A DNA stretch of 33,796 bases from Candidatus Gastranaerophilales bacterium (GTDB lineage Bacteria > Cyanobacteriota > Vampirovibrionia > Gastranaerophilales > Gastranaerophilaceae): positions 1-33,796 of the forward strand of contig CALUXV010000018.1 in assembly GCA_944324835.1 (NCBI GenBank). Direction: 5' to 3'. The position numbers were made by a program, and so were the translations under genes. This document shows, one piece after another, positions 4,170 to 32,362 of this stretch. How positions within the stretch are numbered: the stretch's first letter is position 1; every line of letters begins with the position of its first letter. The notes beneath the pieces are model-generated. The model made no database searches. It had not been told where the DNA came from and saw only the letters and a program-made list of their open reading frames with translations.

Positions 4170-4496
4170 ATGAGTATTTTTGAAGCCGCAATGATGTTAT
4201 GCTTTGGTGCCAGCTGGCCTTTTCAGGTTGCCAAAACATATAAAACCAAAGATGTTAAAGGAAAAAGTATATTTTTCTTATGGCTTGTTGAAATTGGATA
4301 TATATGCGGTATGATACACAAAGTCCTTTATAATCCTGATATTGTACTATTTTTGTATCTGTTAAATTTTGCACTTGTCGGAACAGATATGATTCTTTAT
4401 TATATGTACAAAGATAAAGATTCTCAAAAATCTATAATCTTACAGAGAACATATGAAAAGAAAGAACATCTTGTCCGTATTCCTATAAGGCATTAA
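4170..4496 (+). CDS. PQ-loop (SemiSWEET-like) small membrane protein
   Basis: A 108-residue protein with three hydrophobic segments. The first contains CFGASWPFQV, the Trp-Pro-x-Gln form of the PQ-loop, followed by the basic KTYKTKDVKGKS turn seen in SWEET/SemiSWEET and PQ-loop proteins. Three helices fit a half-transporter that works as a dimer. The substrate is unknown; sugars are the best-known cargo of related proteins. I chose the ATG at 4170 because AAGGA lies 7 bases upstream. An in-frame ATG at 4113 would add 19 residues but has no clear ribosome-binding site. Its last 4 bases overlap the end of the convergent ABC ATPase gene. Confidence 0.75.
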   Translation: MSIFEAAMMLCFGASWPFQVAKTYKTKDVKGKSIFFLWLVEIGYICGMIHKVLYNPDIVLFLYLLNFALVGTDMILYYMYKDKDSQKSIILQRTYEKKEHLVRIPIRH

Positions 4497-5458
4497 ATCT
4501 GATATAAATAGCATTCTACAAAATGTCCTGGTGCAATTTCTTTTGAACAAGGTGATTTTACATTACATATTTTATCTATCATTTGTTCACAGCGTGGATT
4601 AAATCGACAACCGGAAATATTTTCTTGTATACTTGGTGGTTGTCCTTCAATAATTTTTAGACGGTTATTATCCGGATTATTCGCAGGAAGTGAATTTAAT
4701 AAAGCTATTGAATATGGGTGTAATGGATTTTGAAAAAATTGTTTTGATGAAGCTTTTTCAACAATTCGACCTGAATACATAACATTTATTTCATCCGAAT
4801 ACTGCCCGACAAGATTAAGTTCGTGCGAAATGAGAAGTATAGATGTTCCTAAATGTTCTTTGATATCATTCAAGATATTCATAATTTGTGCCTGTATTGT
4901 AACATCCAATGCTGTAGTTGGTTCATCTGCAATAATCAATTTTGCATTTGCAGCAAGAGCCATGGCTATAATTGCTCGTTGTTTCATTCCGCCTGAAAAT
5001 TCATGAGGATAAAATGATAATTTTTCCTTTGCCTGCGGGATTTTAACGATATCTAGAACTTCAACAGCTTTATTCTCAGCATCTTTTTTAGATATATTTT
5101 TATCTTTTAAAATAACTTCCAAAAGTTGGTTTCCAATCGTATACAAAGGATTCAATGAAGTCATTGGATCTTGTGGAATAAGAGCAATTTTATTTCCTCT
5201 GACTTTATTCATTTCAGAATTTTTGAGCGTCAAAAGGTTAATTCCATCAAAAATTATTTCCCCGGAATTAACAACTGCATTTTTAGGCAAAAGCCTTAAA
5301 ATACTCATTGCTGTCATGCTTTTACCGCAACCAGATTCTCCAACTAAAGCAACCATTGATTTTGGTTCAATACTTAATGAGATATTATTTAGAGCATTAT
5401 ATATACCTGACTCACAGCGAAATGACATTGAATAATTTTTAATCTCTAACAAACTCAT
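4493..5458 (-). CDS. Oligopeptide/dipeptide ABC transporter ATP-binding protein (OppD/DppD type)
   Basis: The ATPase subunit of a peptide/nickel-type ABC importer, acting on the inner face of the membrane. Walker A GESGCGKS (residues 40-47), Q-loop PQDPMTSLNP (95-104), signature FSGGMKQR (154-161), Walker B LIIADEP (174-180) and switch His 212 are all present. The C-terminal oligopeptide-transporter domain carries Cys 284, 290, 298 and 304, the spacing seen in OppD-type proteins. Only this ATPase is present; no permease, binding protein or OppF partner is adjacent, so partners must lie elsewhere or it was left behind. No Shine-Dalgarno site precedes the ATG; a TATAAT sits where it would make the transcript leaderless. 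Confidence 0.92.
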   Translation of the reverse strand: MSLLEIKNYSMSFRCESGIYNALNNISLSIEPKSMVALVGESGCGKSMTAMSILRLLPKNAVVNSGEIIFDGINLLTLKNSEMNKVRGNKIALIPQDPMTSLNPLYTIGNQLLEVILKDKNISKKDAENKAVEVLDIVKIPQAKEKLSFYPHEFSGGMKQRAIIAMALAANAKLIIADEPTTALDVTIQAQIMNILNDIKEHLGTSILLISHELNLVGQYSDEINVMYSGRIVEKASSKQFFQNPLHPYSIALLNSLPANNPDNNRLKIIEGQPPSIQENISGCRFNPRCEQMIDKICNVKSPCSKEIAPGHFVECYLYQI

Positions 5459-5465
5459 AATAAGT

Positions 5466-5493
5466 ATTATACATTAATATAATGAGTTGTACA
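5466..5493 (-). promoter_or_regulatory. Promoter of the OppD-type gene, predicted leaderless
   Basis: On the minus strand TATAAT occupies 5471-5466, so the first transcribed base should be 5459, one base before the ATG at 5458. TGTACA (5493-5488) is a 4 of 6 match to a -35 box at 16-bp spacing. The bases between the -10 box and ATG contain no purine-rich ribosome-binding site. Confidence 0.5.
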
Positions 5494-21977: not shown

Positions 21978-22271
21978 ATGAAAAATATTTTTCGATTCTT
22001 TTTAATTTTAACAATAGTTTTAATACCAACAATTGCATTGGCAGAAAAACCTGTTAATCTTCCTTGCAAAAAGCCTAAAAACTGGCACGGCAGCATTGTA
22101 GTTAAAGATGAAACATATGATTCTGAATCCGGATTTGATTTTACAGGTAAAGGAAAACCTAAGTACTATGACCCAATGTACTATAATTATTATATAAATG
22201 AGCCTATGTATGATTTATTTTATAATTATCCGATATTTTATATGCCGCCAATCAGAGGAAAGGCTAAATAG
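21978..22271 (+). CDS. Small secreted Tyr-rich protein, function unknown
   Basis: A 97-residue exported protein. The signal peptide is MKNIFRFFLILTIVLIPTIALA, cleaved after ALA (22). The mature 75 residues include CKKPKNWHGSIVVKDE and a tract of about 35 residues packed with Tyr, Met, Pro and Asn (PKYYDPMYYNYYINEPMYDL). The tract resembles low-complexity adhesive or surface-coat segments, but that is a guess. AAAGG precedes the ATG. It follows another small Tyr-rich exported protein by 80 bases and is followed by hisS, which has its own promoter. No family recognised. Confidence 0.68.
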   Translation: MKNIFRFFLILTIVLIPTIALAEKPVNLPCKKPKNWHGSIVVKDETYDSESGFDFTGKGKPKYYDPMYYNYYINEPMYDLFYNYPIFYMPPIRGKAK

Positions 22272-22283
22272 GTCGTATAATAA

Positions 22284-22318
22284 TTGACATTAATTTGCAG
22301 TCTTAATATAATCAAAGT
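22284..22318 (+). promoter_or_regulatory. Consensus promoter of hisS giving a leaderless mRNA
   Basis: TTGACA (22284-22289) and TATAAT (22307-22312) are perfect matches with the ideal 17-bp spacer. Counting from the -10 box, the first transcribed base is 22319, the A of the hisS ATG. The six bases between box and ATG (CAAAGT) hold no ribosome-binding site. This is the best promoter in the window. Confidence 0.85.
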
Positions 22319-23560
22319 ATGGCTGAAATTATTAGAGTACAAAAAGGTACAAAAGATATATTACCTGCAGAGATTGATTTGTGGCATTTTATGGAAGGGA
22401 AAGCGTTAGAAGTATTTTCTAATGCCGGCTACAAAGAAATAAGAACCCCAATATTTGAAGCAACAGAATTATTTGCAAGAGGTGTTGGAGATACTACAGA
22501 TATTGTTAATAAAGAGATGTACACATTCGAAAAAAGTGAACGTTCTCTAACTCTCCGTCCTGAAAATACTGCCGGAGTTGTAAGAGCTTTCATTGAAAAC
22601 GGTATGCATAGACTAAGTGCACCGGTAAAGCTCTGGTACAAAGGCCCAATGTTTAGATATGAACGTCCGCAAGCAGGACGACAAAGACAATTCCATCAAG
22701 TTGGGATGGAAATGTTTGGTATAAAAGCCCCTACAGCAGATGCTGAAGCTATAGCTCTGGCAATAAGATATTTAAATACATTAGGCTTAAATGATTTAGA
22801 TGTCGAAATTAATTCTCTTGGCTGTCCTGAATGCCGGGAAGAATTCAAAACAAAGTTAAAAAACGTTATAAGGCCATATCTCAAAGATTTATGTGAAGAT
22901 TGCCAAAAAAGGTTCGAAAAAAATCCGTTAAGATTGCTGGATTGCAAAGTAGAATCCTGTAAAGAAATTTATGCAAAACCAGAGATTCAAGAAGTTATAC
23001 AATCAGATTTTATTTGCACTGATTGTGCAGAACATTTTAATAATCTAAAAACATACTTAAACGATTTAGGTATAAAATATTCAGTTAACAAACTTCTTGT
23101 CAGAGGTTTAGATTATTACAATCGAACAGTATTTGAAATCAAATCAAACAATTTGGGTTCACAAAATGCCGTCTGCGGTGGAGGACGATATGATTCACTT
23201 GTAAAGAATCTTGGAGGGCAAGATACTCCGGCCGTCGGTTTTGCAATGGGTATGGAAAGATTGTATTCATTATTACAATCATTGCCTCAAAAGAAACTTA
23301 CAGCTTATGTCGTATCAAATGATATATCAGAAGCCATAAAACTTGTTTCAGAACTAAGAAATAATAATATAAGCGTAGATTTTGACATGACAAATAAAAA
23401 ATTTACAAAACAAATGGAAAAAGCGTCAAAACTAGCAGATTATGCTCTTATTCTAGGGGAAGACGAAATAAAAGCCAACCAAATTTCAATCAAAAACCTT
23501 GCAGAATCCACTCAAGAAACTATTTCAAGAAATGAACTTATAAACTATTTTAAGCTGTAA
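22319..23560 (+). CDS. hisS: Histidyl-tRNA synthetase
   Basis: Class II synthetase charging tRNA-His, cytoplasmic, 413 residues as expected. Motif 2 is FRYERPQAGRQRQFHQ (112-127), the histidine-specific signature is RGLDYYNRT (262-270), GGGRYDSLVKNLGG is at 287-300, and motif 3 is AVGFAMGMERL (305-315). The C-terminal anticodon-binding domain follows. The insertion carries Cys residues (GCPEC, LCEDC, LDCK, ICTDC) typical of one HisRS group. There is no Shine-Dalgarno site, and a perfect promoter places the mRNA start on the ATG. The hairpin after its stop lacks a T-run in this direction. Confidence 0.98.
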   Translation: MAEIIRVQKGTKDILPAEIDLWHFMEGKALEVFSNAGYKEIRTPIFEATELFARGVGDTTDIVNKEMYTFEKSERSLTLRPENTAGVVRAFIENGMHRLSAPVKLWYKGPMFRYERPQAGRQRQFHQVGMEMFGIKAPTADAEAIALAIRYLNTLGLNDLDVEINSLGCPECREEFKTKLKNVIRPYLKDLCEDCQKRFEKNPLRLLDCKVESCKEIYAKPEIQEVIQSDFICTDCAEHFNNLKTYLNDLGIKYSVNKLLVRGLDYYNRTVFEIKSNNLGSQNAVCGGGRYDSLVKNLGGQDTPAVGFAMGMERLYSLLQSLPQKKLTAYVVSNDISEAIKLVSELRNNNISVDFDMTNKKFTKQMEKASKLADYALILGEDEIKANQISIKNLAESTQETISRNELINYFKL

Positions 23561-23570
23561 ATTAAAGAAT

Positions 23571-23597
23571 AAAAAAGGCTTACATTTTGTAAGCCTT
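23571..23597 (-). terminator. Terminator of the Gln-rich protein gene
   Basis: AAGGCTTAC (23575-23583) pairs perfectly with GTAAGCCTT (23589-23597) around ATTTT. Read on the minus strand it is followed by TTTTTTA, so it ends the minus-strand gene that stops at 23625. In the hisS direction no T-run follows. Confidence 0.8.
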
Positions 23598-29740: not shown

Positions 29741-29771
29741 GGACTTGGGATTTTTCTCAAGTCCGTTTTTT
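29741..29771 (+). terminator. Terminator after the 29300 gene
   Basis: GGACTTGGGA (29741-29750) pairs with TCTCAAGTCC (29755-29764), with one G-T pair and a TTTT loop, followed by GTTTTTT. It overlaps the 3' end of convergent mutS by two bases (mutS stops at 29770). Confidence 0.92.
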
Positions 29772-32349
29772 AAGTATTAAACAAATTAAGCTGCGGCGGT
29801 ACAAGTTCCGGTTTATCCGCATATTTTTTATTAGTAGATAAATTTTTAGAAAAATCTTTTTGCATTTTAGTCATTAGTGATTTTGATTTATTAATAACAG
29901 AGCTTGGCAGTCCTGCCATCTGAGCGACATGGATACCATAACTTTTGCTTGCTCCGCCCGGTACAATCTTTCTTAAAAATTCTATTTTGCCATCTTCTTC
30001 CGTAATTGTTATTCTGTAATTTTTAATTTGAGGATATGTTTTGGTCATAACGTTTAATTCGTGATAATGCGTTGCAAATATGCATCTTGCATTTATTTTG
30101 GTTGCAATATATTCAGCAACAGCCCATGCAATTGCAACTCCATCATAAGTACTTGTTCCTCTGCCTATTTCGTCAATCAAAATAAAACTGTTTTCTGTTG
30201 CATTGTTCAGAATATACGCAGTTTCGACCATTTCTACCATAAATGTTGATTGTCCTAGAGTTAAATCATCACTGGCGCCGACACGAGTGAATATTTTATC
30301 CGATATTCCGATTCTTGCATAATCTGCAGGAACATACGAACCTATTTGGGCAAGAATTGCAATAAGTGCATTTTGACGCATATATGTTGATTTCCCAGCC
30401 ATATTTGGACCTGTAAGAATCATAAACCTTGTTGAATTATGTTCTACGGAATCTTGCAACTCTAAGTCATTAGACACATAAGTTCCAAGAGGCAGAATTT
30501 TTTCTAAAACAGGATGACGTCCGTTTTTTATTACAAATTCAGAAGTTTCATTTATCTCAGGTTTCACATAATTATTTTCTAACGCAGTTATTGCAAAAGA
30601 ATTCAATACATCCAGCTTTGCAATACATTCTGCAACTTTTCTTATGATGTCTACAAACTCTTTGGCATAGTTTTTGAAATCAGAATAAATTTTATATTCA
30701 AGTTCATTAATTTTTGTTTGAGCGGTCAGAACTTCATCTTCATGTTTTTTTAGTTCATCTGTGATAAATCGCTCTCCGCCGGTCAGGGTTTGTTTTCTAA
30801 CATAATTAGCCGGAACTTGGCTTAGGAAAGAATTTGTAACCTCAATATAGTATCCAAAGACCCTGTTATACCCAACTTTAAGATTTTTAATGTTAGTTTT
30901 TTCTCTTTCCTGTTGTTCAAAATTTTCTATCCAGGTTGTTCCGTTTGTAAGTAAATCTCTTAAATAATCAAGTCCTTCATCAACGCCAGATTTTATAACT
31001 CCGCCTTCTTTAATTATATTTGGAGCATTGTCATCAATTGTGCGTTTAATTATATTTGCGAAATCGGCTAAATCATCTAACCTATCTTCTATATGATTAA
31101 AAATATCAATATTGCAATCTTTTGTAAGTTTGTATAAGTCTGGCAGAGCAAATAAAGAATCCCTAAGACTCAAAAAATCTTTTGGGAGCGCCGAAGTTGT
31201 ACTCAGTCTAGTTGCCAGCCTTTGGATATCATAAATATCATGAAGTGTTTCTGTTATTTCAACTCGAATATTATCATTTTCGATTAATTTTTCTACAATT
31301 TCTTGCCTTGTTTCTATTTCAGAAAGTTTTTTAAGCGGTTGACAAATCCAGGATTTAAGGAGTCTTGTTCCCATATTCGTACTTGTTCTATCTATAGCCC
31401 AATACAAAGAACCATATTTATTTTTTTCACGTAATGTTTCAACCAGTTCAAGATTTTTTCTTGTACTTGAATCCATTAATACATATTGAGATAGTTCATA
31501 TTGTTCAATTGTATCAAGTTTCGGAAATGATGATTTTAAGTTTTCCCAAATATATGCCAGTAATGCAGCTGCAGCCCTAAAACCGAGTTTACAATTATCA
31601 TACCCCAAAGCATCCAAGGTTGATATATTGAGTGCATTTTTCAAATTATTTTTAGCAAAATCAGGAGTAAAAATTTTAGCAGGAACTTTAGAACAAGTAT
31701 AATTTGCTGTCATTTCTTCCGGTAAATTTAATTTTTCATCAGGAACAATCTGAAATGGTAAAGCTTTTTGAGCAATTGAAGGTCCTATTATTTCAGAAGG
31801 TTTTATTCTTGCTAGTTCAGATAATATTAAGTTTAAAGGGGCTTGAGTTACTTTAAACTCGCCAGTACTGATATCTGAATATGCAAAACCGTACATTCCT
31901 TTTTCTTCAAAAGTTGCGCAGATATAGTTATTGCTGCTTTGCTCTAAAAAATCATTTTCTATAATTGTTCCAGGAGTAACAACTCTAACCAGTCCCCTTT
32001 TTACAATTCCTTTGGCTTGTTTAGGGTCCTCAAGTTGTTCGCATATAGCAACTTTTATACCTTTTTCTATAAGTTTTCTAAGGTAATTTTCCATTGATTT
32101 GACAGGGATTCCAGCCAGAGGAACTTTCCCTAGAGCAGCTCCGGCATCACGTGCAGTAAGAGTGATTTCTAATTCCCGCGATAAAATCTCTGCATCTTCA
32201 AAGAATGTTTCATAAAAATCTCCCATTCTATATAACAGCAGAGTGTTAGGATTTTGCTGTTTTATCTCAAGATACTGGCGCATTCCGGGGGATGTTTCTT
32301 CCGGATTTACATCTATACTATTAATATGATTGATTTCCCCTTTTGTCAT
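29770..32349 (-). CDS. mutS: DNA mismatch repair protein MutS
   Basis: MutS recognises mispaired bases and starts repair with MutL. At 859 residues it is typical of full-length MutS1. The mismatch-contact motif is GDFYETFFEDA near residue 43-53, with Phe and Glu both present. The ATPase has Walker A GPNMAGKST (647-655), Walker B FILIDEIGRGTSTYDG and ATHYHEL. A C-terminal helix-loop region follows. MutL is not in the window. There is no ribosome-binding site before the ATG, and a TATAAT places the transcript start within one base of it. It ends two bases inside the terminator of the convergent gene. Confidence 0.98.
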   Translation of the reverse strand: MTKGEINHINSIDVNPEETSPGMRQYLEIKQQNPNTLLLYRMGDFYETFFEDAEILSRELEITLTARDAGAALGKVPLAGIPVKSMENYLRKLIEKGIKVAICEQLEDPKQAKGIVKRGLVRVVTPGTIIENDFLEQSSNNYICATFEEKGMYGFAYSDISTGEFKVTQAPLNLILSELARIKPSEIIGPSIAQKALPFQIVPDEKLNLPEEMTANYTCSKVPAKIFTPDFAKNNLKNALNISTLDALGYDNCKLGFRAAAALLAYIWENLKSSFPKLDTIEQYELSQYVLMDSSTRKNLELVETLREKNKYGSLYWAIDRTSTNMGTRLLKSWICQPLKKLSEIETRQEIVEKLIENDNIRVEITETLHDIYDIQRLATRLSTTSALPKDFLSLRDSLFALPDLYKLTKDCNIDIFNHIEDRLDDLADFANIIKRTIDDNAPNIIKEGGVIKSGVDEGLDYLRDLLTNGTTWIENFEQQEREKTNIKNLKVGYNRVFGYYIEVTNSFLSQVPANYVRKQTLTGGERFITDELKKHEDEVLTAQTKINELEYKIYSDFKNYAKEFVDIIRKVAECIAKLDVLNSFAITALENNYVKPEINETSEFVIKNGRHPVLEKILPLGTYVSNDLELQDSVEHNSTRFMILTGPNMAGKSTYMRQNALIAILAQIGSYVPADYARIGISDKIFTRVGASDDLTLGQSTFMVEMVETAYILNNATENSFILIDEIGRGTSTYDGVAIAWAVAEYIATKINARCIFATHYHELNVMTKTYPQIKNYRITITEEDGKIEFLRKIVPGGASKSYGIHVAQMAGLPSSVINKSKSLMTKMQKDFSKNLSTNKKYADKPELVPPQLNLFNT

Positions 32350-32362
32350 GTCTATAATTATA
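32330..32362. promoter_or_regulatory. Bidirectional promoter with palindromic -10 between mutS and the 32388 gene
   Basis: TATAATTATA (32353-32362) reads TATAAT on both strands. On plus, TTGATT (32330-32335) sits at the ideal 17-bp distance, giving a start near 32365 and a 23-base leader with GAAGGA. On minus it gives a start at about 32350, one base before the mutS ATG. The plus -35 box lies within the mutS coding region. Confidence 0.7.

Follow-up and report, generated by a model that had tools for sequence, protein, structure and literature searches.

In the window, by which we mean the whole 33,796-nucleotide stretch of Candidatus Gastranaerophilales DNA that was analyzed, the histidine-tRNA ligase gene hisS is preceded so closely by a consensus promoter that little or no room is left for an untranslated leader. 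This raises the question of whether hisS transcription begins on the A of the start codon and, if so, whether hisS is an isolated case. The features at issue are as follows.

21978 to 22271, plus strand: 97-aa ORF with a signal-peptide-like N terminus, upstream of hisS and ending 47 bp from it
22284 to 22289, plus strand: -35 hexamer TTGACA, read directly
22290 to 22306, plus strand: 17-bp spacer with an in-frame TAA inside it (22304 to 22306), poorly conserved beyond close relatives
22307 to 22312, plus strand: -10 hexamer TATAAT, 6 bp before the hisS ATG
22313 to 22318, plus strand: 6-bp discriminator CAAAGT, with T at -1 (a pyrimidine before a purine, as at a transcription start)
22319 to 22321, plus strand: hisS start codon ATG, whose A is the transcription start predicted from the distance to the -10 box
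22319 to 23560, plus strand: hisS, histidine--tRNA ligase, 413 aa (TIGR00442, E=2.4e-144)

The hisS promoter and start codon

The start codon of hisS is secure, because an in-frame TAA lies upstream, the conserved HisRS N-terminal motif KGTKDIL starts at residue 9, and the protein scores 481 bits, passing the NCBIfam hisS equivalog cutoff of 287. Its nearest matches are from Candidatus Gastranaerophilales (93% identity), which places the window among gut Melainabacteria/Vampirovibrionia, nonphotosynthetic relatives of Cyanobacteria. The initial annotation had described perfect -35 and -10 boxes separated by 17 bp, a first transcribed base on the A of the ATG, and no ribosome binding site. The boxes and spacer were confirmed at 22284 to 22312. 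With the last T of the -10 box counted as -7 (the box then spanning -12 to -7), the 6-bp gap places the predicted +1 on the A of the ATG. No Shine-Dalgarno (SD)-like 4-mer derived from AAGGAGG was present at -20 to -4 of hisS, while SD motifs were strongly enriched 5 to 9 nt before the starts of other genes of the genome. A T-box, riboswitch, or attenuator leader before hisS was also considered and rejected, as no Rfam family matched at gathering score anywhere in the window and the promoter leaves no room after it. Downstream, the inverted repeat AAGGCTTACA...TGTAAGCCTT (window 23575 to 23597) lies between hisS and a 126-aa Q-rich ORF, at their convergent ends, and is probably a terminator, recognized on the minus strand.

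The same annotation had singled out this maximal promoter as unusual. Exact TTGACA-N16-18-TATAAT pairs occurred 7 times in the 1.98-Mb genome, compared to 6 times for a reversed-pattern control, so the perfection of the hisS boxes is not significant on its own, and exact consensus was dropped as evidence. Two of the 7 pairs (those of hisS and one other gene) were followed after exactly 6 bp by an ATG opening a long ORF (413 and 214 aa). It is the position of the -10 box relative to the ATG, and not the perfection of the boxes, that is informative.

Conservation of the promoter-to-ATG distance in Gastranaerophilales

We compared the upstream regions of 47 hisS genes from the order, the window's own included, and classed a gene as leaderless if a -10 box (TA...T, ≤2 mismatches) lay exactly 6 bp before the ATG and no SD was present. 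A second, independent sample was chosen by genus (25 genomes, 21 genera). The box-to-ATG distance, proposed at the outset as the feature to compare among relatives, was kept in both: 36 of the 47 order-level genes had the -10 box exactly 6 bp before the ATG and no SD, a count that phylogenetic correlation inflates, and 15 of the 25 genus-sampled genes were leaderless-like (14 with ≤1 mismatch in the -10 box and 1 with two). The remaining order-level genes had either an SD and no such box (10/47) or a 9-bp gap (1/47); in the genus-chosen sample, 8 were SD led and 2 were of other types, leaving ~40% of these genomes without the leaderless hisS layout.

Two side observations concern individual sequences. 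A contig titled uncultured Geobacteraceae (L051) carries hisS and an upstream region identical to those of one Gastranaerophilales locus (L029), which points to probable contamination or misnaming of the bin it comes from. In another relative (L191, the hisS of G157), the match contains one in-frame TAG, which may stem from a sequencing error, a damaged gene, or another cause.

Among 30 nonredundant leaderless hisS genes, T-12, A-11, A-8, and T-7 were present in all 30, with T-12, A-11, and T-7 fixed by the class definition; T-1, which lies outside that definition, was also invariant (30/30). Flanks and spacer were near background, except for a few T- or A-rich positions. Most relatives carried TTGAC(A/T) as the -35 of hisS in one of two registers, with a spacer of 17 or 18 bp, and the -10-to-ATG gap was still 6 when the spacer shifted from 17 to 18 bp. 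A gap that stays constant despite turnover of the spacer and upstream DNA is expected under selection to keep transcription starting at the A of the ATG.

The conserved letters also bear on a translational role for the AT-rich block before hisS, which might serve ribosomal protein S1 or an unstructured enhancer site instead of acting as a -10 box. In other bacteria, S1 has been invoked to explain AT-rich signals before genes that lack an SD (PMC5397173). However, an S1 site needs neither a -35 partner nor a single-base register, and what is conserved here is a -10 box (TA...AT) held in such a register, with a TTGAC partner 17 or 18 bp upstream; we find the translational reading barely credible. 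A different possibility is that the promoter is real and that transcription starts 1 to 3 nt off the A, giving an hisS mRNA that is nearly, and not exactly, leaderless. Start-site choice can wobble, two relatives (L047 and L168) have a 9-bp gap before hisS, and the corresponding gaps vary among mutS and alr orthologues. Set against this are the predominance of the 6-bp gap in the order-level set, the invariant T-1, and a conserved N terminus that begins at this very ATG, which make a short leader unlikely; a transcript of that kind would in any case still be functionally leaderless.

No terminator was recognized between the 97-aa ORF and hisS, and with only 47 bp between them, a read-through, leadered hisS transcript may coexist with one initiated at the promoter. 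That such a transcript is the main source of hisS translation, with TATAAT an incidental AT-rich match, is very improbable: the 6-bp gap and the -35/-10 pair are kept across the order while the upstream DNA varies, and the leader so produced would still lack an SD. Moreover, L029 has a strong terminator, with a stem of 16 pairs, that ends 4 bp short of the hisS TTGACA; because it lies directly before the promoter, transcription from upstream should contribute no leader at this locus.

An SD site with the -10 box shifted upstream, the pattern that the initial annotation had named as evidence against its proposal, was looked for in relatives; it was confined to other lineages, with most cases falling in one derived clade. 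On the hisS tree, the SD-led genes comprised one 9-member clade (support 100/99) and one long-branch entry, and they had a -10-like element ~30 nt upstream together with an AAGGA-type SD. The best explanation is that the 6-bp layout is old in hisS of this order and gave way, in one clade, to an upstream promoter with an SD. The switch of that clade to an SD-led leader provides a natural contrast in which an evolutionary change between initiation modes is directly testable.

Predicted leaderless genes in the genome and across the phylum

Gene starts were surveyed in 20 stretches of the genome (400 kb) plus the window, a sample of 434 kb and 351 gene starts. TATAAT preceded ATG at 6 bp in 13 cases and at 7 bp in 10, for a total of 23 compared to 2.5 expected (1.25 per position elsewhere; p about 5e-15). 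The peak was limited to 6 to 7 bp, which further argues against read-through as the main source of hisS translation, and it was seen for ATG and not for GTG or TTG starts. Allowing ≤1 mismatch to TATAAT, 46 of the 351 genes had a match at 5 to 8 bp, and 42 had one at 6 to 7 bp. After background subtraction, we estimate that the predicted leaderless class makes up ~8 to 12% of genes. Because TATAAT peaks 6 to 7 bp before ATG genome-wide, hisS belongs to this class and is not the lone exception that its promoter had first suggested.

SDs were found in 4/46 class genes versus 204/305 others, a difference that is partly mechanical because an SD and a -10 box at 6 to 8 bp compete for the same position. 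Class genes were less often tight operon followers (8/41 versus 82/196, p=0.008), and T occupied -1 in 79% of the 6-bp cases. Members included mutS, mutL, recN, recF, alr, mnmE, ispD, ispG, purD (an assignment that scores below its curated cutoff), rnhB, murJ, rdgB, and mgtE. Besides that of hisS, two such -10 boxes lie in the window:

32357 to 32362, minus strand: TATAAT 7 bp before mutS (29770 to 32349, minus strand), like hisS predicted to be leaderless
5466 to 5471, minus strand: TATAAT 7 bp before an oligopeptide-type ABC ATPase gene (4493 to 5458, minus strand)

That mutS, mutL, recN, recF, and rnhB are all predicted to be leaderless (window 29770 to 32349; L093, L100, and L101) hints that DNA repair genes may be overrepresented in the class.

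With hisS itself left out, the genes flanking hisS in relatives showed the same 6- to 7-bp peak; a set of 97 genes from other bacteria, mostly Firmicutes loci, did not. Orthologues of recN and alr often had a -10-like hexamer at 6 to 8 bp, and mutS was more variable. Across Gastranaerophilaceae (L218 to L242), recN repeatedly carried TATYCT exactly 6 bp before the ATG with a TTGC-type -35, so that in recN, as in hisS, the distance from promoter to ATG is nearly fixed. The 16S 3′ end, which holds the anti-SD, was not found in the assembly and is probably missing there; the strong SD enrichment implies that an anti-SD exists.

To extend the measure to the phylum, we compared TATAAT-N6-7-ATG with the codon-phase-matched TATAAT-N12-13-ATG, which replaced a reversed-pattern control because the latter was poorly matched in composition. 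N6-7 exceeded N12-13 in 87/87 Gastranaerophilaceae genomes (ratio, 1.51), whereas photosynthetic, psbA-bearing cyanobacteria had no N6-7 excess (34/81 genomes above 1; ratio, 0.95). Six other psbA-lacking families summed to 482 versus 226, and one psbA-lacking family, f16, showed no excess (279 versus 294). The highest ratios, 3 to 12 on small counts, came from G013, G026, G041, G021, and G038 of the psbA-lacking families f9, f12, and f13, where leaderless genes may be even more prominent, though not at hisS. Upstream of hisS, the leaderless layout was seen neither in psbA-lacking outgroup families nor in photosynthetic cyanobacteria. In psbA-lacking family f5 (G004, G010, G018, and G032; L155 to L158), hisS is ~31% identical to that of Gastranaerophilales and belongs to a different HisRS lineage, which suggests gene replacement. 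We put forward tentatively, at somewhat less than even odds, that leaderless expression is old and widespread in Vampirovibrionia and other psbA-lacking families, and that photosynthetic cyanobacteria either lost it or never had it; if true, the phylum would be split by translation initiation mode.

Proposed initiation at hisS and comparison with known systems

Textbooks treat leaderless genes as exceptions in E. coli; in Deinococcus and mycobacteria they are common. We propose, with a probability of nearly 0.9, that a sigma-70-type promoter is fused to the hisS ATG, that the main hisS transcript is leaderless, and that hisS is one of a standing class of such genes coexisting with SD-led genes in Gastranaerophilales. 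RNA polymerase with a housekeeping (sigma-70-type) factor would initiate at the A of the ATG, giving a main mRNA that starts 5′-AUG, and a 70S ribosome with initiator tRNA would most likely recognize that terminal AUG. A start on the A and 70S initiation are what established knowledge would predict from this layout; recognition of 5′-AUG by 70S ribosomes is reviewed in PMC12340547.

In Deinococcus-Thermus, TANNNT located ~6 to 7 bp before the ORF is a transcriptional -10 element, accompanied by no SD, at nearly one third of genes (PMC12340547). Motif position, lack of an SD, and coexistence with SD-led genes are alike in the two systems. Gastranaerophilales differ in phylum, in the smaller share of genes, which here is predicted by sequence alone, and in the form of the box: TACACT is the commonest -10 in Deinococcus (PMC12340547), whereas the motif here is near TATAAT and hisS has a full -35. 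In Mycobacterium tuberculosis, a TANNNT -10 places the start at the initiation codon, and leaderless transcripts account for 22 to 26% of genes and for 7 of the 14 tRNA synthetase genes that had a primary start site (PMC3898074). The mycobacterial promoters lack a conserved -35 and their starts were mapped by RNA-Seq (PMC3898074), whereas hisS has a consensus -35 and a predicted start.

The survey of Zheng et al. in 2011 defined TA-led genes by a -10-like signal ~12 bp upstream of the start codon with no SD, and it found leaderless genes in many phyla and many cyanobacterial genomes whose genes were neither SD led nor leaderless (PMC3160421). Under the same sequence definition, it is the nonphotosynthetic sister groups of cyanobacteria that show the signal here. 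Within the phylum in its broad sense, only 19 gene start sites were judged leaderless in the transcriptome of Synechococcus elongatus UTEX 2973 (PMC6091082), and the 81 psbA-bearing genomes had no N6-7 excess. Our literature search returned no report on leaderless genes in Gastranaerophilales, Melainabacteria, or Vampirovibrionia. Start codon callers that score SD sites only may misplace starts in Gastranaerophilales genomes. The mechanism is known from Deinococcus and mycobacteria, and its predicted occurrence in Gastranaerophilales is a new addition, extending it to an uncultured, host-associated order that neighbors Cyanobacteria and in which hisS, an essential tRNA synthetase gene, is the clearest example.
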